Assembly: GCA_027490195.1 (NCBI GenBank)
Contig: JAIXYN010000099.1
Span: forward strand, 62,001-126,000
DNA from: Verrucomicrobiaceae bacterium
GTDB taxonomy: Bacteria; Verrucomicrobiota; Verrucomicrobiia; Verrucomicrobiales; Verrucomicrobiaceae
Length of the DNA stretch: 64,000 nt
Reading direction: 5' to 3'
The notes under the pieces were generated by a model that worked only from the letters and a program-made list of their open reading frames with translations, searched no databases and was not told the DNA's origin. This document shows, piece after piece, positions 47,697 through 64,000 of the stretch (its first letter is position 1; each line of letters opens with the position of its first letter). The position numbers and the translations under genes were made by a program.

Positions 47697-50228
47697 CTAC
47701 TCAATTTTTCGCACCGTCAGCAGTTTCAACGCTGGTTTGCCATCTTCACGCGCCTGCGCCAGGTCCACGACGAACTCCGCCTGCCAGTCGTTCAGTTCTT
47801 CGGGATCAATCAGCACCTGGCAGATGCTCCATGATGTGTTGTCATCGCTCGGCTTTACGTAGGTATGGCGGCCGTTGCGGGCTTCGTTGTCGAGGCGGAT
47901 GCGCTCATGCTCCGTGTAATAGGGCTCCATGAGAGCCGCCAGGGAGTCGGCGTTGAATGGACTGCTGACGGTGCCGACTGCTGCGGCGTAGTTTTCCACG
48001 GAGAGCGGGCGCAGGAATCGGAAGATTTCGGTGCGGATGAGGGCGGTGAATTCGCGCTTGTTGCGCGTGATGTCCGGCGCTTCCGCTGGCTTTTCTTCCT
48101 GTTCGTCAGGTTTGAAGTTGGGATCGCGCATGCGTTCCCATTCATCCAGCAGGCTGGAGTCTGTGCCGCGCAGCACCCCGGCAATCCAGCTCTCCATTTC
48201 CTGAACCGGTTCAGTTTTAAAGTTCTCGGGAACGGTCTGCGCCAGCACCTTGTGCACTCCAGAGAGATGGCGCAGCAGTACGCCTTCGGCACGGTTCAGT
48301 TCGTAGTCGTTGATGTAGTCGCTGAAGGTGCGGAAGTTCTCGAACATCTCGCGGGCAATGCTCTTGGGGCGGATGTTTTCCTGACCGATCCACGGATGCG
48401 CCTCGCTGAAGGCGTTGAAGGTGTTGTAGATGAAGTCGCGGCAGGGTTTCGGGTATTCCAGCTCCTCCAGCTTCGCGATGCGTTCTTCAAACGGTACGCC
48501 TTCGTTCTTCATCGCCACCATGGCCTCGTCCTTCACCTGATCGAGCTGACGGCGCAGAATGATGTCCGGATTTTCCAGGATGGATTCGCACAGGGTCATG
48601 ACATCTGCCGCATACGTCGGGGAAGCAGGATCAATGAGAGCCAGCGTGTCGATGAGGTAGAGGGAGAGCGTGTAATTCAGCGAGAAATCCTCCTGCAACT
48701 CGACATTGAGCCGAAGCTTGGTGCCATTGGCAGCGCGTTGTGAGGTGGGGATGATCTCAATGATTTTGCGCTGCACCAGCGCTCGGAAGAGCTGCCATGC
48801 GCGCTTCTCGTGCTGCTTTTTTGCATTGGCGGTCTCATGCGAGTCGCCAATAAGCTGGCGCATCGCCGCACAGGCATCGCCGGGTCTGCTGAGCACCTGC
48901 AAGAGCATGCCGTGCGAGACCTGAAAGCGGGAAGCCAGCGGCTCGGGAGCAGCGCTTTGCAGCTTCTTGAAGGTGTCTTCATTCCAGCCAACAAAACCCT
49001 CCGGCGCTTTCTTCTTCACCATCTTGCGCATCTTCTTCACATCGCCGGCGGCCTTGGCCTCCATCTTGGCATTTTCCACGACGTGCTCTGGTGCCTGGCA
49101 GACGACATAGCCCACATCGTCATAGCCGCGTCGTCCGGCACGCCCAGTGATCTGGTGAAAATCCCGCGCGCTCAGCGTTGCCACCTTCTCGCCGCCATAC
49201 TTGCTCAAGCGCGTGAGCAGCACGGTGCGGATGGGCACATTCACGCCGACGCCGAGGGTGTCCGTGCCGCAGATGACTTTGAGCAGGCCGCGCTGGGCGA
49301 GTTTTTCCACCAGGATGCGGTATTTCGGCAGCAGTCCGGCATGATGAATGCCCACGCCGTGGCTGAGATACTTCTTCACCTCCTTGCCATAGGGGCTGGT
49401 GAACTTAGCGCCCGCCAGCTCTTCTTTGATCGATGCCTTTTCTGCTGCGGTGCAGAAGTTGAGGCTCATTAAATCCTGGGCAGCCTGCGCGGCATCGTTC
49501 TGGGTGAAGTGGACGAGATACACCGGCGCTTTGTTGGCGGCGATGAGCTCCTGCAGCGTCACATCGACCGCTGTCTGCGCATAGCTGAACTCCAGCGGCA
49601 CCGGGCGCTCGTAGGCAGCCACAACAGTGGTCTCGGCGTTGGTCAGGTGGGTGAGCTTCTCTTTGAAAAAGTCGGAGCCGCCCATCGTGGCTGACATCAG
49701 CAGAAAGCGCGAGTCACTCATGGTCAGCAGCGGCACCTGCCAGGCCACACCGCGCTCGCGATCGGAGTAGTAGTGAAACTCGTCCATGATCACCTCACGG
49801 AAGGGAGCCTTGGCGCCATCACGCAGTGCGTAATTGGCCAGAATCTCTGCGGTGCAGCAAAGGATGGGTGCATTGCGATTCACCGTCGCATCACCGGTGG
49901 CCATGCCGACGTTGTCGGGCCCAAAGTCACGGCAGAGGGAGAGAAATTTCTCATTCACCAGCGCCTTGATGGGGCAGGTGTACACGGAGCGCCGCCCTTT
50001 GGCGAGGGAACGGAAGTGCATGGCCAGTGCCACCAGCGATTTTCCAGAGCCCGTTGGGGTGTTGAGGATGACGTTGCGATCATCGAACAGCTCCAGAATG
50101 GCCTCCTCCTGAGCTGGGTACAGCTCCAATTTTTTCTCCGCCACATAGTCGAGAAATGCCGCCAGCAGCTCGTCATTGGAGCAGTCGGTGGATTTCGGCA
50201 GTCGGCGTAGCAGAGGGTGGTCGGTCAT
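47697..50228 (-). CDS. Ski2-like DEAD/DEAH helicase with DUF3516 domain
   Basis: An 843-residue superfamily-2 helicase. Motifs in order: L-Y-P-A-Q-E-E-A-I (Q-like), T-P-T-G-S-G-K-S (I), M-D-E-F-H-Y-Y (II), S-A-T-M (III), [12 protein letters not shown] (V) and [12 protein letters not shown] (VI). The C-terminal 350 residues are a DUF3516-like domain, found on a bacterial group of Ski2-type helicases thought to act on RNA. Two perfect palindromes lie just upstream of the start (50236-50319). No nuclease neighbours are found. Confidence 0.88.
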
Positions 50229-53407: not shown

Positions 53408-54355
53408 TCAGTGCCCTGACTCCACAAACCGTACCGTCACACCCTTCACCTGCCCTGCCATTTTCAGGCCGCGTTCTTTTCCCATCACGCAGATGGCGGT
53501 GTCCAGGGCATCGCTGGTCATGCAGTCCGGGGCGATCACCGAGCAGGCGATGCGCTCCGTCAGCCCCAGCCCGGTCTGGGGGGAGACGATGTGGGAGTAA
53601 CGGACGCCGTCGATCTCGGTGAACTGGTACAAGTCTCCCGAGGTCGAGACGCCGCAGTTGTGCAGGCGCACGCTCTCCAGTTTTTCTTCCGGTGTGGCAC
53701 TGGCAAACTGCCGCAGCTTGATCTCCCACGCATCTTCTCCCGGCGGGGGATCGCCGATGGCGATGTCTCCACCCGCCATGACAAGGGCGCGGGTGAGGCC
53801 GTGCTCACGCAGCACGCGCAGTCCGGCATCGGCGGCGTAACCTTTGGCGATGCCACCGAGGTCGAGCAGCATGCCGGGCTTTAACAGCGTGATGGTGTGC
53901 GCTTTGGCATCCATCTGCACGGCGCGCCAGTCGGTGGCGGCAAGTGCCTGCTGCAAGCGGTCTGCGGGGGGCAGTTTATGGGTGCGTTTGGTGCGCCGCC
54001 AGAGGTGGGTGAGATTGCCGCAAGTGATGTCGAGAGCGCCCTCGGTGAGGCGTGCGAATTCGAGGGAGTGCGAGATGAGGGTGAAGAGATCGTCGCTGGC
54101 TTTGAAGGGCTTGTTGGGGCCGGCATTGCAGAGCTGCATGAGCTCGCTGTTGGGCTCGTAGTCGGAGAAGACGGCGTTGAGCGCGGCAATGCGTTTGAAG
54201 GCGGCATCGGCGGCCGCTTCCGCCTGTGCTTTCGAGTCCGCATGCACCGAGATGCGGAAGGTGGTGGCCATCAGCGGTGCGGAGAAATCGAAGCGCTCCA
54301 GGGCCTGCGCGGGAAGGGCACAGAGGAGCAGGAAAAGCAGGGCAATGGAAGACAC
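53408..54355 (-). CDS. apbE: FAD:protein FMN transferase (ApbE)
   Basis: A 315-residue protein with a signal peptide (about 1-16) and the ApbE fold: M-A-T-T-F-R-I, F-S-D-Y-E-P-N-S-E-L (flavin site), L-D-L-G-G-I-A-K-G-Y-A-A-D, A-L-V-M-A-G-G-D-I-A and the metal site S-D-A-L-D-T-A. ApbE flavinylates periplasmic proteins by covalent FMN attachment to a Thr. No NQR or RNF genes are nearby. The start is set at GTG 54355 because the upstream frame runs through a terminator hairpin (54390-54411). Confidence 0.9.
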   Translation of the reverse strand: MSSIALLFLLLCALPAQALERFDFSAPLMATTFRISVHADSKAQAEAAADAAFKRIAALNAVFSDYEPNSELMQLCNAGPNKPFKASDDLFTLISHSLEFARLTEGALDITCGNLTHLWRRTKRTHKLPPADRLQQALAATDWRAVQMDAKAHTITLLKPGMLLDLGGIAKGYAADAGLRVLREHGLTRALVMAGGDIAIGDPPPGEDAWEIKLRQFASATPEEKLESVRLHNCGVSTSGDLYQFTEIDGVRYSHIVSPQTGLGLTERIACSVIAPDCMTSDALDTAICVMGKERGLKMAGQVKGVTVRFVESGH

Positions 54356-54389
54356 GGAACTCACAGAAGGTGGATCGTATCGACGAAAA

Positions 54390-54411
54390 ACCCGGCCTTG
54401 GAAAGGCCGGG
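54390..54411 (-). terminator. Terminator behind the roadblock gene
   Basis: Stem ACCCGGCCTT / AAGGCCGGGT with a 2-base loop. On the minus strand a T-run follows, so it ends the transcript of the MglA/roadblock operon. It lies between the roadblock stop (54445) and the ApbE start. Confidence 0.85.
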
Positions 54412-54444
54412 TATGCAAGAGGACGGGAGTCACCCTTTCCTTAT

Positions 54445-54843
54445 TCACCAAGCTGGCTCGGCGTGCAGTGCGTCGGAGAGATTCAGGGAAGGCAAAGAGA
54501 CCGGCCGGATGCGGGTCGTAATGGGCTTGGCCAGTCTCTCACAGGCTGTGCGGATGGCGGGGATGACTTCGGTGTTTTGGCAGCGGACGAGCAGCACGCG
54601 GCGCTGCGGCAGACCGTGGAGATAAATGACACCGCCGTCGTGCTGCTGGACGATTTCCAAACAATCGCCGCTGCCGGAGCGGCGGCCAAGTTCTGAAGCA
54701 GCTGAGAGCGTGGCATGTGCCAGCACAAGGATGGCGGCGGTAGGCGGCTCGGCATCGCCCGCGCAATCGAGCAGACGTCCGGCGTCATCCGTAATGGCGA
54801 CCTGAATGATATCAGGAATGGAGGCGAGGGCGGTGAGTTCCAT
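54445..54843 (-). CDS. Roadblock/LC7 domain protein (MglB-like)
   Basis: A 132-residue protein with the roadblock/LC7 fold: an opening L-T-A-L-A-S-I-P-D-I-I-Q-V-A-I-T-D-D-A-G strand pair, a central helix with A-A-I-L-V-L-A-H-A-T-L-S-A-A-S-E-L-G, and I-Y-L-H-G-L. In Myxococcus the roadblock protein MglB is the GTPase-activating partner of MglA; this one follows the MglA-like gene by 20 bases and is the natural partner. It is the last gene of the operon, with a terminator behind it. Confidence 0.85.
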   Translation of the reverse strand: MELTALASIPDIIQVAITDDAGRLLDCAGDAEPPTAAILVLAHATLSAASELGRRSGSGDCLEIVQQHDGGVIYLHGLPQRRVLLVRCQNTEVIPAIRTACERLAKPITTRIRPVSLPSLNLSDALHAEPAW

Positions 54844-54863
54844 GGTTGAAGAACAAGGATGAT

Positions 54864-55517
54864 TTACGCGGCGAGAGCGTGGGTGGGAAGCTCGTGCGGT
54901 GTGGCGGAAGTGCTGTCCGAAGGCGCGGTGCGCAGGCGGAACTGATGCAGCACCGCCTGGGAGATGGCATTGAGCGTGGCCAGCACGTTGCGACCGCTGC
55001 GCGCGTCTGATTCGAAACTGAGAAAGGGCGTGGGCCGGTTGTTGAACAGATACTCCAGGTATTCGACCGGCGCGGCATTGGGCAGATCCCGCTTGTTGTA
55101 TTGAATGACGACGGGCAGGCGGTCGAGCGAGCTTTCGTTCATGCGCAGGTTGGCATCGAGGCTTTGGAGGGACTGCAGGTTGTCACGCTGGCGGTCCATT
55201 TGAGAATCAGCCACAAAGACCACGCCATCGGCCTGTCTCAGCACGAGCTGCAGCGTGGCATTGTAGGTGATCTGGCCGGGGACCGTGTAGAGATGAAAGG
55301 TGGTCTTATAGCCGGGCAGTGCATCTGCCTCGACGGCGAGGAAGTCGAAGAAGAGGGTGCGATCCTGCGCGGTGGAGAGCGAGACGAGGTCGCTGCAGCC
55401 ATTGGGGTCCAGCTTGGCGTGGATCTGCTGGAGATTGGATGTTTTTCCACTCAGCGGCGTGCCGCAATAGACGATCTTAAAGCTGACGGTGTGGTCGTCG
55501 TGATTGATGCTGGGCAT
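54864..55517 (-). CDS. mglA: MglA-type small GTPase
   Basis: A 217-residue bacterial Ras-like GTPase. Motifs: G-T-P-L-S-G-K-T-S-N-L (G1), R-T-L-F-F-D-F-L (switch I area), Y-T-V-P-G-Q-I-T-Y-N (G3, with the P-G-Q of the MglA group) and Y-N-K-R-D-L-P-N (G4). Myxococcus MglA sets cell polarity and gliding reversals. The C-terminus is extended by a Ser/Thr/Pro-rich tail of about 20 residues. Start at ATG 55517; the frame is open upstream without homology. It sits between the scaffold gene and the free roadblock gene. Confidence 0.92.
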   Translation of the reverse strand: MPSINHDDHTVSFKIVYCGTPLSGKTSNLQQIHAKLDPNGCSDLVSLSTAQDRTLFFDFLAVEADALPGYKTTFHLYTVPGQITYNATLQLVLRQADGVVFVADSQMDRQRDNLQSLQSLDANLRMNESSLDRLPVVIQYNKRDLPNAAPVEYLEYLFNNRPTPFLSFESDARSGRNVLATLNAISQAVLHQFRLRTAPSDSTSATPHELPTHALAA

Positions 55518-55581
55518 GGCGGAGAGGAATGACGAGTGAAAGAAAGAGAAATGCCGCAGACTTTCGCAGAATGCCGGGCTT

Positions 55582-58500
55582 TTAGCCCAGCATGCGGGCG
55601 AGTTCGCGGGCGATGAGAGTGATCTTGTCGCGCATGCCGGTGGAGGGTTCGTCATCGTGCAACACGCCGATGATGGAGTCCCCCGGAAAGCAGAAAGTCA
55701 GCAGACGACCGCCCGCATTGAGCGTGAAAGTTTCCGCGCCTTCGATGCCGATGAGCGGAGCCAAGCCCCGCAACTGACGGGCGATGTCTGGTGCCTGACG
55801 CTGGAATTCCACGGCATCCGCCTTGGATAAATCCGCGTGGCTGAGCACGTGAGAGCCATGCAGGCAGACGCAGGCGCTCAGGCCCTGCTGCAAAGCCAGC
55901 AACTCGACAACCCGTGGTGCGGAGAGGTGCTCCTCGGTGCCCAGCAGTGCGCGCAGAAGGAGCTGGTCCGTTTGGGTGTCGAGCGGGGAAAGACCGAGGA
56001 AGGAATGTTTCACCGCCGTCATTTTCGCCGGAGCCGCTGGCGGCGTGGGCTGAACTGCGGGTGGCGCCGGAGCGGGTTGAGGTTCTGGCTTGAATTGGGG
56101 AGCCACTGGCTCCGAAAAAAGCGGTGTGTTCACCGCCTGAGGTCTGAACATTCCACCTGAGGCAGGCTTGGGTGCGGGTGTGCTGAAAGCCGGAATTTCT
56201 TCCAAGGCCGGAGCGAAGGAAGGTGAGGGCTGGAAGAGAGCAGGTGCCGGGGTGGCAAACAAGCTGGTGGCTGGCTTGGCCTCGGCAGCTGGAGTGAAAG
56301 CAGAAACCGGCTGCTGCGGTGTGGGAATATACCCGAGCAGTTGAGCGCTGTTAAAACCAGATTCCCCAGGTGCTTTGGCCGCCAGGGGACCTGTGGAAGA
56401 GGAGGCAAAAGGATCGAACGGTTTGACGGCTCCTGCGAGAGGTGAATTTGAATGAGCCGCCGGTTGTGCCTCAGACGGCGACTGCGAGGCACCGAAGGAT
56501 TGAAACGCTCCGGCGAGTGGCTGCAGAATTTTCGATTGAGATGCAGCCGATGGCTGTGCGGCAGGAAAAGCGAATGCTGCTAAAGCTGGAGGCGGTGCCG
56601 TTTCAGCAGGCGGGGAGGGCGGGAATAATGCAAACTGAGCTGGACCACCGGTTGGCTGAGGGGAACCAAAAGCTGATCCAGGTGATGAAGCCGCTGCGGG
56701 AGGGGAGAACGAGAACGGTGCTGCACCACCACTCGGCTGGGCAGAAAAGGCTGACACCGGTGCAGAAGCGGCAGCAGGCTGGCTTTGCGCAAAGGGAGCC
56801 AAGGCCGCGCCGAACATCGGCGCTGGCTCTGCGGGTGCAGGCGCGGAAGCAGCAGCGAACATCGGCTGCGAATTCTGAGCAGACTGCTGCGGGGGATTGG
56901 GTTGCACCGACAGACGAGCCTGAAGCGGTGCCGGGCTTGGACTGCCAAAAGTGGCAGGTGCAGCCGTTGCCGCCGACATGTTGGTGAGCGCATGAAACAC
57001 CTCGTTCTGCGGCAGCTTGATCTTAAAATCACGCTTTGCATTGGCGAGTGTGTTGCGGAAGCCGAAGTCGGAAATGCCATCGATGAGCACGCCGAGTTCC
57101 AGCACGACGTTGCCGGAGGAAATCTGCTCATTCAGCACACTTGCCTGAACACTGGTGGTGATCCACGCCGGCAATGTGGCCGGATTGAAGCCAAGTTCCT
57201 CGACGCTGTAACCGCCTAAAACTGCAGCGAATCCCAATTTGGCCATGCCTGATCCTGATGAGGCTGGCGTATGATTGCCCTGGGGGGCTGATAGCGGCTG
57301 TGAGGAGAAGGCGTTCGGCGCAGGAGATTGTGGCTGCGAGGAAAAGGCGTTTGGCGCAGGAGATTGTGGCTGCGAGGCGAAGGCGTTCGGCGCAGGAGAT
57401 TGTGGCTGTGAGGAGAAGGCGTTCGGTGCAGTAGATTGTGGCTGTGAGGAGAAGGCGTTCGGCGCAGATGGCGCTGCCTCTTGCATTGCAGAGACGAAAG
57501 GGGAGCCAAAGGGCATCGCGGGTGCTGTCGTCGCCATGTCCGAAGGCGTAGAGGCTTTTTGCTGCGAGGCTGGTGTGAAAAAAGTGGTAATGGATGCCTG
57601 AGGCTGAACCGCTGCAGGTGTGGAACCTGACCAGTTTTCCGGCTTTGCAGGTGTGAAAGAGGGCGCAGATGGCGCAGCTGCGGCGGGCTGCTGTGACATG
57701 CCGAAAAGCGAGCCATTCGGGCTGGCACCTAGCGAGAAGGGAGATCCCGAGGAAGTGGCGGGTGCAGCTGCGGCGGGCTGCTGTGACATGCCGAAAGGCG
57801 AGCCACTTGGGCTGGCACCGAACGAGAAGGGAGATCCCGAGGAAGTGGCGGACGGAGCTGCGCCGGGCTGCTGCGACGTGCCGAAGGGCGAGCCATTGGG
57901 TGCTGCGCCTAGTGAGAAGGGCGACGCAGGGGGCTGCTGTACCGCAGGCTCTGCGGCCGGTTGACTCATTTGGAACGGGGAGCCAGCCGGGGCCTGCGGC
58001 GCGGGCGTTGCAGGCTGGCCAAACGAAAAGGGTGATGGCGATGGTGCGGCGGCGGGTGCAGGTGCGGCACCATGTCCTTCGCGGGCTTGAGCGATCAATC
58101 CCGGAAGCTTCGCCGCCGGTAGTGCCACAAGACGTGGATCCTGGGGGGAAATAGGCACTTGGAAAAGCGCCGGGCAGACTCGATACAGCTCAAAAACCGG
58201 CAATGCCGCCTGACCACTGCGCAATGCATTTTCCAGAAGAGCAGGCGGCAGGGAAAGCGGCTGCTCCATAGGCAGTGCCCCCATGCGCACGACTTCGGCG
58301 GGGAGTTGGTTGATCACATCTCCGACTGTCAGCGGTGAATTCGTGGGGGTTGCTCCGATAACGCTGAATGGCGAGATTCCTGTGGCGGAATTGATCGGCG
58401 GTGCGGAAATCGGTTCGTTGCCAGCCGTTTTGAAGAGTGGACTGCCCCCGATTTGGAAGGGGGAAGCACCCGCTGGAAACTGTTGAGGAGGAGAGGCTTG

Positions 58501-58635
58501 CATGGATGAGGGGCTATTTGTGCCTGGGCCAGCCACTCTCTGCGGATGTGCTCCCGCGAAGTATTGAGGAGCGTTTTGCCCCGGTTCGTTGGAACCGGCC
58601 CCACGCTGGAACAAACCTCGTAACGAAAAACTCAT
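55582..58635 (-). CDS. Giant Pro/Ala/Gln-rich protein with roadblock-like C-terminus
   Basis: A 1017-residue protein with no signal peptide. Most is low-complexity, rich in Pro, Ala, Ser, Gln and Phe, with two tandem repeat arrays (57299-57478 and 57674-57930) and scattered S-P-F-S-F/S-P-F-G type motifs. Two folded segments stand out: module A (about 103-182: V-G-D-V-I-N-Q-L-P, L-P-P-A-L-L-E-N-A-L-R-S-G) and module B (about 465-545: V-E-E-L-G-F, A-S-V-L-N-E-Q-I-S-S-G), which look like copies of one unit. The last 130 residues resemble a roadblock/LC7 domain (L-L-L-R-A-L-L-G-T-E-E-H-L-S, G-L-S-A-C-V-C-L-H-G). It heads the MglA operon; a scaffold or localisation factor for the GTPase is inferred. 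Confidence 0.75.
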   Translation of the reverse strand: MSFSLRGLFQRGAGSNEPGQNAPQYFAGAHPQRVAGPGTNSPSSMQASPPQQFPAGASPFQIGGSPLFKTAGNEPISAPPINSATGISPFSVIGATPTNSPLTVGDVINQLPAEVVRMGALPMEQPLSLPPALLENALRSGQAALPVFELYRVCPALFQVPISPQDPRLVALPAAKLPGLIAQAREGHGAAPAPAAAPSPSPFSFGQPATPAPQAPAGSPFQMSQPAAEPAVQQPPASPFSLGAAPNGSPFGTSQQPGAAPSATSSGSPFSFGASPSGSPFGMSQQPAAAAPATSSGSPFSLGASPNGSLFGMSQQPAAAAPSAPSFTPAKPENWSGSTPAAVQPQASITTFFTPASQQKASTPSDMATTAPAMPFGSPFVSAMQEAAPSAPNAFSSQPQSTAPNAFSSQPQSPAPNAFASQPQSPAPNAFSSQPQSPAPNAFSSQPLSAPQGNHTPASSGSGMAKLGFAAVLGGYSVEELGFNPATLPAWITTSVQASVLNEQISSGNVVLELGVLIDGISDFGFRNTLANAKRDFKIKLPQNEVFHALTNMSAATAAPATFGSPSPAPLQARLSVQPNPPQQSAQNSQPMFAAASAPAPAEPAPMFGAALAPFAQSQPAAASAPVSAFSAQPSGGAAPFSFSPPAAASSPGSAFGSPQPTGGPAQFALFPPSPPAETAPPPALAAFAFPAAQPSAASQSKILQPLAGAFQSFGASQSPSEAQPAAHSNSPLAGAVKPFDPFASSSTGPLAAKAPGESGFNSAQLLGYIPTPQQPVSAFTPAAEAKPATSLFATPAPALFQPSPSFAPALEEIPAFSTPAPKPASGGMFRPQAVNTPLFSEPVAPQFKPEPQPAPAPPAVQPTPPAAPAKMTAVKHSFLGLSPLDTQTDQLLLRALLGTEEHLSAPRVVELLALQQGLSACVCLHGSHVLSHADLSKADAVEFQRQAPDIARQLRGLAPLIGIEGAETFTLNAGGRLLTFCFPGDSIIGVLHDDEPSTGMRDKITLIARELARMLG
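57299..57478 (-). repeat. Five 36-bp tandem coding repeats
   Basis: Five copies of a 36-bp unit inside the scaffold gene, each encoding A-P-N-A-F-S-S-Q-P-Q-S-P with few changes. The copies differ at only a few bases and keep the reading frame, so they have expanded recently and are coding, not a CRISPR array. Confidence 0.9.
57674..57930 (-). repeat. Three 90-bp tandem coding repeats
   Basis: About 2.9 copies of a 90-bp unit inside the scaffold gene (30 residues each), encoding a S-P-F-S-L-G-A-S-P-N-G type segment. Copy 1 to copy 2 differ at only a few bases; copy 3 has drifted more. The copies keep frame. Confidence 0.85.
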
Positions 58636-58979: not shown

Positions 58980-59054
58980 GACCCCTTCGTCTAGCGGTTA
59001 GGACACATCCCTTTCACGGATGCGACACGAGTTCGATTCTCGTAGGGGTCGCCA
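58980..59054 (+). tRNA. tRNA-Glu (anticodon TTC)
   Basis: A 75-base cloverleaf: acceptor GACCCCT/AGGGGTC, D arm TAGCGGTTAGGA, anticodon loop CTTTCAC with anticodon TTC, and T arm AGTTCGATTCT. G discriminator and CCA are encoded. The CTTCGTCTAG...GGACAC layout is typical of bacterial tRNA-Glu. A weak promoter pair (TTGCGC at 58928, AATATC at 58951, 17 apart) lies upstream. Confidence 0.96.
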
Positions 59055-61608: not shown

Positions 61609-62241
61609 TCACTTCTTGCCGCCGCCCTTGGAGTTCATCTTTTCAATGGCGTTTTTGAAGCGTGCCAGTTCTTCGGGTGGGATGGGCAGCGCTGAGTCGA
61701 ACAGTTCTTTGAGTGATTCACTTTGCGCCATGGTCTCAATCGCTGAGCCGTCAGGATACTCCACATAGTAGTTTCCGCATTCCCAGCAGAGGCTGGTTTG
61801 GAAGATTGGGGTGCCTGCTTGATAGACCTTGATACCATGGATTGGATAGTGGCAGAAAGCGCCGGGCACTTCGTTTTTAGCGGTGAGCAGCGTGGCAATG
61901 GCTGTCTTGAATGATTCCAGATCAGCAGGCTGGACTGCCTTTTGGGTGATGATGCGTGCGTTCCCTTGGAAAGGCGGAATCGGAAAGGTTTCGACTTCGA
62001 CATCTTCCACTTCCGCCATGGTGAAATCCAAAAGTAAGAGCTCTATTTTGTCGGCTTTCAGAATCATCGCGGAAAGGCTGTCGCGAAATTCCTTCTGAAT
62101 TCCCCCCTTTCTTTCCCAATATTTGGTTTTGGCGCCCATCTGGGCCTCGCGGGCTTCATCTGCCTTTTTGGAGTCTTCGTCCGAGGCGGCTCCCCAAAGT
62201 GCCAGGGTATGCAGCAGCAGGATCACGAGGCTTATTTTCAT
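61609..62241 (-). CDS. Exported protein of unknown function
   Basis: A 210-residue protein with a signal peptide (M-K-I-S-L-V-I-L-L-L-H-T-L-A-L-W-G-A-A) and a charged stretch after it (E-D-S-K-K-A-D-E-A-R-E-A). The rest is a mixed alpha/beta domain that has a Cys pair in C-W-E-C-G-N-Y-Y-V-E-Y-P and ends in Gly/Lys. It resembles no family I can name. The frame stays open for a long way upstream, opposite the ABC exporter gene, but the signal peptide marks the start at 62241. Confidence 0.65.
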   Translation of the reverse strand: MKISLVILLLHTLALWGAASDEDSKKADEAREAQMGAKTKYWERKGGIQKEFRDSLSAMILKADKIELLLLDFTMAEVEDVEVETFPIPPFQGNARIITQKAVQPADLESFKTAIATLLTAKNEVPGAFCHYPIHGIKVYQAGTPIFQTSLCWECGNYYVEYPDGSAIETMAQSESLKELFDSALPIPPEELARFKNAIEKMNSKGGGKK

Positions 62242-62349
62242 GAGGGGATTTGGATGGAATTGAATGGAGAAAAATTGCGAGGCACAAGATAAATCGTGCC
62301 AGATTAAAGTGGCAAAATGGCCGGTGGGCCTGAAAAAGAGGATAAAGCC

Positions 62350-64000
62350 ATGGACGACAAGCCCGAGCCGATGACCAACAGCGCTGCCCTGCGCCGCCTG
62401 CTTGTGTTTGCACGCGGGCACTGGCGCATCGCCGTGTGGCAGTTCACGCTGGCCGTGGCGGGCACCTCTCTCATCTTCGTCTTTCCCGGCGTGGTGCGCT
62501 GGTTCATGGATGAAATCATCCCGCAGAAGCGCAGCGACCTCATCTGGCGGGCCGGCGGTCTGGCGCTGCTGGCCTTCGCCTTGCGCGAAGGGTTGTTCTA
62601 TTTCCGCACCCGGGTGAACTGTACCTTTGAGCAGCGCATGATCACGGATCTGCGCAGCCAGTTGCATCGGAAGATCGAACTGCTGCCGCTGCGCTGGTTT
62701 GATCATCAAAGCACCGGTGACATTCTCACCAAGCTGGCCGACGACGTCCCTGCCACTCAGCGCGTCATCCTTGAAGGCATCGAGCAGGGCTGCACCGCCG
62801 TGCTGCAGATCCTCATCACCGCCATCGTCATGCTCGTGGCGGACAGCAAGCTCGCGCTCATCGTCCTGGCCCCCACGCCGTTCATCGCCGCCGGGGGCTG
62901 GATCTACTCGCGCTGGGTCTCCCCACGCGCCACCGCTGCGCGTGAGGCCACCAGCGCGCTCAATGCCACGCTGCATGATACCATCACCGGCATTCGTCAG
63001 ATCAAGAGCTTCACTGCCGAGGAGATGCGGCAGTGGAAGTTTCTCGCCGCCAGCCAGCGGCTCCAGGAAAAGCAGACGCGCCTCATGGCTGCCTGGGCCT
63101 TCTACTCGCCTTCCATGACGCTGCTTGGAAACGGCGGCCTCGTTCTGCTGCTCATGGCCGGTTCCTGGTGGTGTGTGCAGGGCAGCATGACGCCGGGGCA
63201 GTTGATGGAGTTTCTGCTCCTCGTGGGCTTCCTCTACGAACCCATCGCCCGGCTCCACGGCGTGAATCAAACCCTGCTCAACGGCCTCTCCGCCGCCAAG
63301 CGCGTCTTTGCCATCCTCGACAACGAAACCGAGGAGGATCTCGATGCGGGGCAGTCGCTCGCATCCATTCGTGGCGAGATCGAATTCAGCGCCGTGGCCT
63401 TCAGCTACCGTGCCGACAAGCCCGTGCTGCAAGACATCACGCTGCGCGCAGCCCGCCATCAAACCATCGCCATCGTCGGCGCCACGGGTTCCGGCAAGAG
63501 CACGCTCTTCCAGCTTCTCACCCGCTTCTACGATCCGCAAAGTGGCAGCATCACACTCGATGGCGTCCCGTTGCAAAACCTCAGCAAACGCGGGTTGCGC
63601 CAGTCCCTCGCCTACGTCACGCAGGAGGCCTTCCTCTTCGCGGGCACCGTGCGCGACAACCTCCTCATCGGCAAACCCAGCGCCACCGATGTCGAACTCT
63701 GGACCGCTTTGCGCGATGCCTGCGCCGAAGACTTCATCCGCCGCAGTCCCGAAGGTCTCGATGCCGAAGTGGGCGAACGCGGCGTGCTCCTCAGCGGTGG
63801 CGAACGCCAGCGCCTCGCCCTCGCCCGTGCCTTCCTCAAAGACGCCCCCGTGCTCCTCCTCGATGAAGCCACTTCCGCCGTCGATGTGAAGTCCGAGCAC
63901 CTCATCCAGGCCGCGCTGGCCAAACTCCGCGCCAACCGCACCAGCCTCATCATCGCCCATCGACTCAGCACCATCGTGGACGCGGATGTGATCTATGTCC
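62350..64000 (+). CDS. MsbA-like ABC exporter, fused permease/ATPase (partial)
   Basis: At least 550 residues of a half-size ABC exporter, cut by the window end. Six membrane spans (about 20-310; the second-helix region has F-E-Q-R-M-I-T-D-L-R-S-Q-L, typical of MsbA-type transporters) are followed by an ATPase with V-G-A-T-G-S-G-K-S-T (Walker A), Q-E-A-F-L-F (Q-loop), L-L-S-G-G-E-R-Q-R (signature), V-L-L-L-D-E-A-T-S (Walker B) and A-H-R-L-S (H-loop). Likely flips lipid or glycolipid to the outer leaflet. Start chosen at ATG 62350, 8 bases after an AGAGG ribosome site; ATGs at 62317 and 62407 regions are alternatives. The gene is divergent from the exported protein at 61609. Confidence 0.9.
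   Translation, partial: MDDKPEPMTNSAALRRLLVFARGHWRIAVWQFTLAVAGTSLIFVFPGVVRWFMDEIIPQKRSDLIWRAGGLALLAFALREGLFYFRTRVNCTFEQRMITDLRSQLHRKIELLPLRWFDHQSTGDILTKLADDVPATQRVILEGIEQGCTAVLQILITAIVMLVADSKLALIVLAPTPFIAAGGWIYSRWVSPRATAAREATSALNATLHDTITGIRQIKSFTAEEMRQWKFLAASQRLQEKQTRLMAAWAFYSPSMTLLGNGGLVLLLMAGSWWCVQGSMTPGQLMEFLLLVGFLYEPIARLHGVNQTLLNGLSAAKRVFAILDNETEEDLDAGQSLASIRGEIEFSAVAFSYRADKPVLQDITLRAARHQTIAIVGATGSGKSTLFQLLTRFYDPQSGSITLDGVPLQNLSKRGLRQSLAYVTQEAFLFAGTVRDNLLIGKPSATDVELWTALRDACAEDFIRRSPEGLDAEVGERGVLLSGGERQRLALARAFLKDAPVLLLDEATSAVDVKSEHLIQAALAKLRANRTSLIIAHRLSTIVDADVIYV

Follow-up and report, generated by a model that had tools for sequence, protein, structure and literature searches.

Here, we describe a cluster of three genes from a Verrucomicrobiaceae bacterium (GenBank assembly GCA_027490195.1, contig JAIXYN010000099.1, positions 62,001 to 126,000), centered on a gene for a GTPase of the MglA type. 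We refer to the whole 64,000-nucleotide stretch of DNA that was analyzed as “the window,” and all positions are counted from its first letter. Three open reading frames (ORFs), all on the minus strand, run from 58635 to 54445 in an operon-like arrangement. The first encodes a protein of 1017 amino acids (aa), referred to below as “the giant” (55582–58635); the second encodes the MglA GTPase (217 aa; 54864–55517); and the third encodes a 132-aa, divergent, MglB-type roadblock protein (54445–54843). A cluster of this composition had been proposed in a preliminary description of the window, and it holds up. The mglA ORF as originally listed (54864–55655) begins too early: distant relatives align from residue ~45–47, and the conserved Met is M47. 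Moving the start to M47 (55517) removes an apparent overlap between the giant gene and mglA, and the corrected intergenic gaps are 64 nt between the giant gene and mglA and 20 nt between mglA and the gene for the 132-aa protein.

The GTPase assignment made in the preliminary description was correct. The window MglA matches M. xanthus MglA (5ymx) with E = 7.4e-50 over residues 2–194 of 217, and it keeps Arg53, Thr78 (in the G3 motif), Gln82, and the NKRD motif. Its best named match is in a Prosthecobacter sp. metagenome-assembled genome (MAG), at 91%, and in a search of its own genome at E ≤ 0.001, the only match is itself. The third gene had been described as a free roadblock protein. Alone, it matches Pfam Robl_LC7 with E = 0.0057, which is below the cut-off. 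At the level of family profiles, the third-gene family (profile A4) matches verrucomicrobial MglB (profile A3) with an hhalign probability of 97.3 (E = 1.9e-11), and A3 in turn matches deltaproteobacterial-type MglB with a probability of 99.5 (E = 1.1e-22). This indirect chain of profiles places the third gene in the MglB family, with a putative role as a GTPase-activating protein (GAP).

Architecture of the giant

The C-terminus of the giant (residues 883–1017; 55585–55989) is, by structure prediction, a Roadblock/LC7 domain. An AlphaFold model of the C-terminal 139 residues, built with 23 aligned sequences, has a predicted local distance difference test score (pLDDT) of 87.3 and a predicted template modeling score (pTM) of 0.82. 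In the model, a short N-terminal helix precedes the order helix-strand-strand-helix-strand-strand-strand-helix, i.e., the Roadblock/LC7 fold. Foldseek gave 26 matches in PDB at E ≤ 0.001, from MglB, the MglA-MglB complex, Ragulator, MP1-p14, and a “heteroheptameric complex” (5x6v) that we take to be Ragulator; MglC appeared at E = 1.6e-3. In a second structural comparison, an Asgard roadblock protein scored Z 13.3 (root-mean-square deviation [rmsd] 2.9 over 111 residues), T. thermophilus MglB scored Z 12.8 (rmsd 2.9 over 114 residues), and MglC (7ct3) scored Z 9.8 (rmsd 3.4 over 108 residues). Among sequence profiles, PF03259 matches 7 of the 23 alignment members at E ≤ 1 (best, 6.1e-08), with the window copy among those that have no match; the profile of the giant's C-terminal domain matches the roadblock chain 7f8f with E = 0.0033. 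The model and both fold comparisons thus confirm the fold that the preliminary description had suspected for this region. Roadblock folds dimerize and, in MglB and Ragulator, bind Ras-like GTPases.

Scans of the whole giant against Pfam and NCBIfam gave no match. An iterative profile search revealed two copies of one ~95-aa domain, which we named D: D1 (residues 96–189; 58069–58350) and D2 (residues 461–558; 56962–57255). A single profile detects both copies, and a genome-wide search for D at E ≤ 1 returned two matches, both inside the giant. Within the window family alone, the hhalign similarity of D1 and D2 is weak (E = 0.017). Their relationship is drawn from an iterative profile that crosses other families, with a possibility of drift, yet the aligned registers agree. 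D is a domain of unclassified fold: 0/27 sequences match Pfam, 0/29 match NCBIfam, and there is no sequence match in PDB. AlphaFold gives a fair model of D1 (pLDDT 84.2); the best Foldseek match to the model has E = 1.4, and the best score in the second structural comparison is Z 2.2 (rmsd 4.8 over 70 residues), an absence of matches that does not prove a new fold.

The remainder of the giant differs in composition. Apart from the domains and the N-terminal motif, it has 673 residues, of which 76% are Pro/Ala/Ser/Gly/Gln/Thr, 7.4% Phe, and 4% charged; on the basis of this composition, they are predicted to be disordered. Two long stretches follow the D copies: stretch 1 (residues 190–460; 57256–58068) is rich in SPF and FG and only 2% charged, while stretch 2 (residues 559–882; 55990–56961) is 8% Phe and 6% charged. 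The preliminary description had called the giant a low-complexity protein, a label that overlooks the two D copies; these and the roadblock are folded domains, set among long Pro/Ala/Ser/Phe-rich stretches. Outside the domains of the window giant, SPF occurs 10 times, compared to 1.5 expected (0/500 shuffles reach this count). Using a threshold of ≤0.01, SPF is enriched in 25 of 36 proteins, the window protein included: 15 of 16 in the window family (again including the window) and 10 of 15 in other families of the order. The likeness to eukaryotic FG nucleoporins is in composition only.

The giant begins with a 12-residue motif, MSFSLRGLFQRG (residues 1–12; 58600–58635). Of 68 rows, including redundant ones, 52 show the corresponding pattern, and 5 of the 16 misses start at a contig edge. 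Attachment to the membrane by an amphipathic N-terminal helix finds no significant support in the window protein: the hydrophobic moment has p ~0.47, in a test of low power.

Conservation of the cluster

We compared the cluster across a “close set” of 69 loci: the window, 26 Verrucomicrobiota-labeled loci drawn from 80 related loci, loci from 40 of the 72 other MglA-positive genomes of the order, and 2 of the class. Removing 7 of the 69 loci, whose MglA core was identical to another, left 62 non-redundant loci, to which the counts below refer unless stated otherwise. Weak or fragmentary GTPase matches (G064, G100, and G081) were left out, L054 was omitted from alignment A7, and L082 from A6. 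Locus L050, labeled Rokubacteria, is outside the 62 and has a borderline D match (0.0011); the P-loop counts below place it among the loci outside the phylum.

The arrangement is strongly conserved. In all 62 loci, the gene directly upstream of mglA encodes a C-type roadblock (i.e., of the type found at the giant's C-terminus). D is encoded upstream of mglA in 60 of 62, the exceptions (L040 and L135) being cut by contig ends, and at least two D copies are seen in 46; L049 and L051, where D and the roadblock are in separate ORFs, were included in the 60. Downstream of mglA, 50 of 62 loci have an MglB-type gene. The co-occurrence in relatives that the preliminary description had proposed to survey is therefore found. 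The C profile is partly circular because its 23 sequences come from the same loci; a profile restricted to the window family still detects the domain in all 20 loci from other families of the order (L131–L150; 19 non-redundant).

Conservation extends to the protein sequence. Ratios of nonsynonymous to synonymous substitution rates (dN/dS), measured against eight relatives, are 0.02–0.08 for D1, 0.06–0.18 for D2, 0.04–0.11 for the roadblock domain, and 0.09–0.26 for the disordered parts; 3 of the 16 linker ratios are undefined, and dS approaches saturation in some cases. By these estimates, every part of the giant is under purifying selection. Together with the invariant giant-MglA arrangement, this indicates that the giant is more than a chance ORF.

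Outside the window's class, the arrangement changes. All 13 loci from other classes have MglB after mglA. Seven of them also have, next to mglA, a divergently transcribed gene for a D-bearing protein, six of these with a detectable C-type roadblock; D was undetected in the remaining six. In three loci, L166, L167, and L168 (equivalent to L190, L183, and L182), the protein divergent from mglA has a stretch between D and the roadblock that presumably resembles a helix-hairpin-helix (ComEA-like) region. Among 53 loci labeled as outside the phylum, D was found in none (L050 not counted), a weak C-type match lies upstream of mglA in three (L072, L074, and L109), and a normal MglB lies upstream in 41, of which 17 were used to build the profile that detects it. 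In a draw of 240 genomes from the phylum, at least 15 have D (a lower bound, since G257 was missed in the draw and its D protein was found in a separate search) and 23 have MglA, with all 15 falling within the 23. The system is not limited to Prosthecobacter-like bacteria.

Two Zixibacteriota MAGs (L074:6587–10416 and L109:5788–9019) show a different arrangement. Their MglA proteins are 379 and 364 aa long, with a long low-complexity C-terminal tail that terminates in the basic-aromatic sequence RGFFKRLFGIK. A free roadblock-like protein is encoded upstream; downstream are MglB and then an ATPase ORF that we assume to be PilB-like. The tail is possibly a convergent disordered tail and anchor, carried by the GTPase itself.

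P-loop substitution, MglB loss, and flanking features

Two features of the cluster went unmentioned in the preliminary description: a substitution in the MglA P-loop and MglB loss among some members of the family. The residue equivalent to Ras Gly12 is Pro21 in the window MglA (codon at 55455–55457), in place of the usual P-loop Gly, which is a usual MglA feature and not a formal requirement of the family. Across the 62 close loci, Pro occupies this position in 43 and Ala in 14; two loci have Gly, and Ser, Gln, and Glu each occur once. By contrast, Gly is present in 8 of the 13 loci of other classes (Pro in 3, Ala in 2) and in 50 of the 53 loci labeled as outside the phylum, with Ser in the other 3 (two of these records are labeled only “bacterium”). 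Other catalytic residues are retained in the close set, with Arg53 in 60/62, Gln82 in 60/62, and Thr78 in 59/62.

For M. xanthus MglA, the substitution G21V was found to impair motility, and a sevenfold lower kcat is reported for T. thermophilus MglA (PMC3000849). For H-Ras G12P, the introduction of a simulation paper states that intrinsic GTP hydrolysis is kept and that the GAP is not bound (PMC6662853). By analogy, Pro21 might act likewise in MglA.

Two loci have degenerate MglA copies that still adjoin an ORF for a giant-type roadblock protein. In L135 (G023) and L142 (G104), the P-loops read GPQGSGKS and GAEGAGKT, respectively, and the Arg53 and Gln82 positions are changed or gapped. These GTPases have possibly lost hydrolysis.

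In 12 of the 62 loci, there is no MglB-type gene downstream of mglA, and the giant gene is still beside mglA. We searched 10 whole genomes that have no MglB neighbor with the A4 profile for divergent MglB; A4 was chosen because A3 lacks the sensitivity needed for the divergent type (G072 and G025 escaped it). MglB was found in none of nine genomes, although a still more diverged MglB could escape both profiles; three positive controls were found. The tenth genome, G052, has a divergent MglB-type match on contig C129 (9202–9495) and mglA on C97, which suggests that its MglB was relocated rather than lost. The giant and MglA are thus the stable pair, and MglB is the part that gets lost.

Several other features lie around the cluster. 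Downstream of the third gene, on the same strand, a terminator-like hairpin of 10 pairs (7 G-C) is followed by a T run (54412–54390). It is a consensus match only, and hairpins of this type are not more numerous in the region than in shuffles; it likely marks the end of the operon. An ORF of the ApbE family (53408–54451, minus strand; E = 1.7e-70) has its match starting at residue 61, and its true start is probably further downstream because the hairpin falls inside its first 21 listed codons. Upstream of the cluster, a tRNA-Glu gene lies on the opposite strand (58980–59054). Elsewhere in the window, a 783-aa ORF (61609–63960, minus strand) has no Pfam or NCBIfam match, and an ORF for a DEAD-box helicase (47697–50228, minus strand) has a C-terminal DUF3516 match.

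Possible roles of the giant

In M. xanthus, RomR, the roadblock adaptor MglC, and the roadblock GAP MglB position and control MglA (PMC10329633, PMC7949163), and roadblock dimers such as MglB and Ragulator are described as binding platforms for Ras-like GTPases (PMC9481161). The preliminary description had held that MglA/MglB switches do not come with a disordered scaffold of this size. In that form, the statement is not supported: the RomR scaffold has an intrinsically disordered region (PMC10329633). The difference here is that scaffold and roadblock are in one chain. The reading that we favor, tentatively and with slightly less than even confidence, is that the cluster encodes a variant of the MglA switch in which a scaffold is built into the primary roadblock partner, with binding, localization, and GAP activity as predicted components. 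By analogy, a single chain would join the tasks of RomR and a roadblock adaptor, which are separate in Myxococcus. The earlier suggestion of a scaffold fused to a roadblock is thus also the best explanation here, with the gathering of MglA at one place in the cell, for which a pole or a prostheca had been suggested, as its conditional part.

The mechanism could be as follows. The genes for the giant, MglA, and a divergent MglB form an operon-like cluster, and the giant terminates in a predicted roadblock domain. A dimer of the giant would bind MglA directly, as is suggested by the persistence of the pair where MglB is gone; MglB, if present, would assist as a GAP or dock as it does on MglC. 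The N-terminal motif and the D domains would attach the giant to a site in the cell, and its Phe-rich, charge-poor chains would cluster many copies there, so that MglA would be held or switched off at that site. Finally, with Pro or Ala at the Gly12 position, MglA would depend less on a classical MglB, and the decay or loss of MglB seen in the lineage is consistent with this. Pro21 is found in 11 of the 12 loci without MglB vs 32 of the 50 with it; these counts, which come from related loci and are not tree-corrected, lean the way one would expect if MglB were needed less in the presence of Pro21. Type IV pili, the output in Myxococcus, may also be the output here. A link to type IV pili was rejected as evidence, because the PilT family is present in 112 of 112 genomes of the order, including those in which MglA was undetected, and is non-discriminating.

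Comparison with known systems shows both likeness and difference. Like the MglA/MglB systems of M. xanthus and T. thermophilus, the cluster has a GTPase with Arg53, Gln82, and Thr78, an MglB-type roadblock protein, and a partner with a roadblock fold. Unlike those systems, the gene order is giant-MglA-MglB rather than MglB-MglA, the partner has ~1000 aa rather than ~160 aa, Pro occupies the Gly12 position, and MglB is divergent and absent in part of the family. As with RomR and MglC, one GTPase is, or here would be, the target of a partly disordered protein and of another roadblock besides MglB (PMC10329633, PMC7949163), but these are separate proteins in M. xanthus, whereas the giant has disordered parts and roadblock in one chain together with D domains. 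RomR also has a receiver domain and a Glu-rich C-terminal helix, while the giant has no receiver detected by Pfam and its C-terminus is a roadblock. Ragulator/LAMTOR-Rag likewise provides a roadblock platform for Ras-like GTPases, and its fold is among the matches (5y3a, 1veu, and 6ehr); it is a eukaryotic multi-subunit complex, so that the likeness is limited to fold and principle. In Ragulator/LAMTOR, anchoring falls to a separate subunit.

Wuichet and Sogaard-Andersen surveyed MglA/MglB in 1,611 genomes and listed Verrucomicrobia under Group 5 MglA (PMC4316618). In the first BLASTP search of that survey, 58 of 63 MglB proteins were single-domain, at 129–179 aa, and the other five had a response-regulator domain (PMC4316618). 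A parallel in layout is Group 3 MglA of beta/gamma-proteobacteria, in which a conserved protein built from other domains, its ends conserved and its linker variable, adjoins MglA and one or two MglB genes (PMC4316618); its ends are predicted to be receiver-like and winged-helix, rather than D domains and a roadblock, and the taxa are different. A giant roadblock partner is undescribed in the open literature found, a scope outside which fall subscription papers and supplements, including the supplementary tables of PMC4316618, which may list such proteins.

Alternatively, the giant could be an MglC-like adaptor fused to a RomR-like scaffold, whose roadblock would bind MglB and so place the GAP, with MglA contacting MglB only. 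Such a role is consistent with the MglB gene downstream of mglA (50 of 62 loci, and 13 of 13 in other classes) and with the Foldseek match to MglC. However, the giant stays beside MglA in the 12 loci that lack MglB, 9 of the 10 genomes searched have no detectable MglB anywhere, and MglB outscores MglC in both fold comparisons. We consider this explanation unlikely. Lower still in our estimation is the idea that the giant is an effector, reading MglA-GTP through its roadblock and producing an output through the D domains and linkers, with regulation left to MglB and the intrinsic GTPase. In the papers cited here, roadblock proteins beside MglA are regulators or adaptors, and no output domain was recognized in the giant; nevertheless, the D domains and linkers are under purifying selection, match no known regulatory domain, and could therefore serve for output, and an effector would also account for the 62 of 62 loci in which giant and MglA occur together. 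Finally, it is very improbable that this is an ordinary MglA/MglB operon in which the roadblock protein has a fast-evolving, functionally neutral N-terminal extension with repeats arising by slippage: the giant gene does contain two tandem repeats with periods that are multiples of three (36 bp, 4.8 copies, with APNAFSSQPQS-type units, at 57296–57467; and 90 bp, 2.8 copies, at 57673–57921), and its linkers diverge quickly (alignments of the window protein with eight relatives contain 8 to 32 gap runs), but linker dN/dS is 0.09–0.26 where defined, SPF is enriched in relatives despite the sequence divergence, and D1, D2, and the N-terminal motif are conserved across families.

Several observations weigh against a scaffold-bearing roadblock partner of MglA. 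(i) In the second structural comparison, GAF/phytochrome and profilin chains reach Z 9.3–10.4, a lead of only ~3 for roadblock proteins. The giant's roadblock has no significant hhalign similarity to deltaproteobacterial-type MglB (E = 0.18) or to verrucomicrobial MglB (E = 0.046), so MglB-like activity cannot be transferred to it, and we filed it as a roadblock, not as MglB. (ii) The family-only C profile misses L051–L054, L060, and L082 and is above 0.001 for L177 and L178. (iii) None of five more distant relatives, whose linkers are short, is enriched in SPF, and tandem repeats inflate the count in the window. (iv) The N-terminal helix of the window giant is not significantly amphipathic, so that membrane anchoring is putative; p is 0.06–0.11 in L052–L054 and L060, and the test has low power, because the MinD reference scored 0.36. 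(v) The P-loop change and the loss of MglB are confounded with phylogeny, and outside the window's class MglA mostly has Gly (8/13), MglB is adjacent (13/13), and the D protein is divergently transcribed (7/13). (vi) Giant-MglA binding, localization, and GTPase behavior are predictions from sequence.

A bolder version of the favored reading is a self-contained polarity or clustering module that evolved in Verrucomicrobiota, with a natural “G12P” MglA that can do without its classical GAP, MglB. Control would pass to a disordered roadblock protein of 300–1200 residues, rich in Phe stickers, which would take over from RomR, MglC, and MglB in a single chain and build a condensate-like platform by means of D and an N-terminal anchor. 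We regard this version as doubtful.

The most surprising features are the fusion of roadblock and scaffold as an invariant partner of MglA and the Pro that naturally occupies the Gly12 position. The pairing looks like an undescribed way to position and regulate a Ras-like switch in the cell. If the favored reading is true, a single long, disordered roadblock protein can run a bacterial Ras-like switch. This MglA, with Pro at the position of Ras Gly12, is also a natural example for the study of GAP-independent GTP hydrolysis. As far as the literature found shows, MglA is apparently unstudied in Verrucomicrobiota. The cluster adds a conserved domain without a recognized fold and is a concrete candidate for a system of spatial organization in this phylum.

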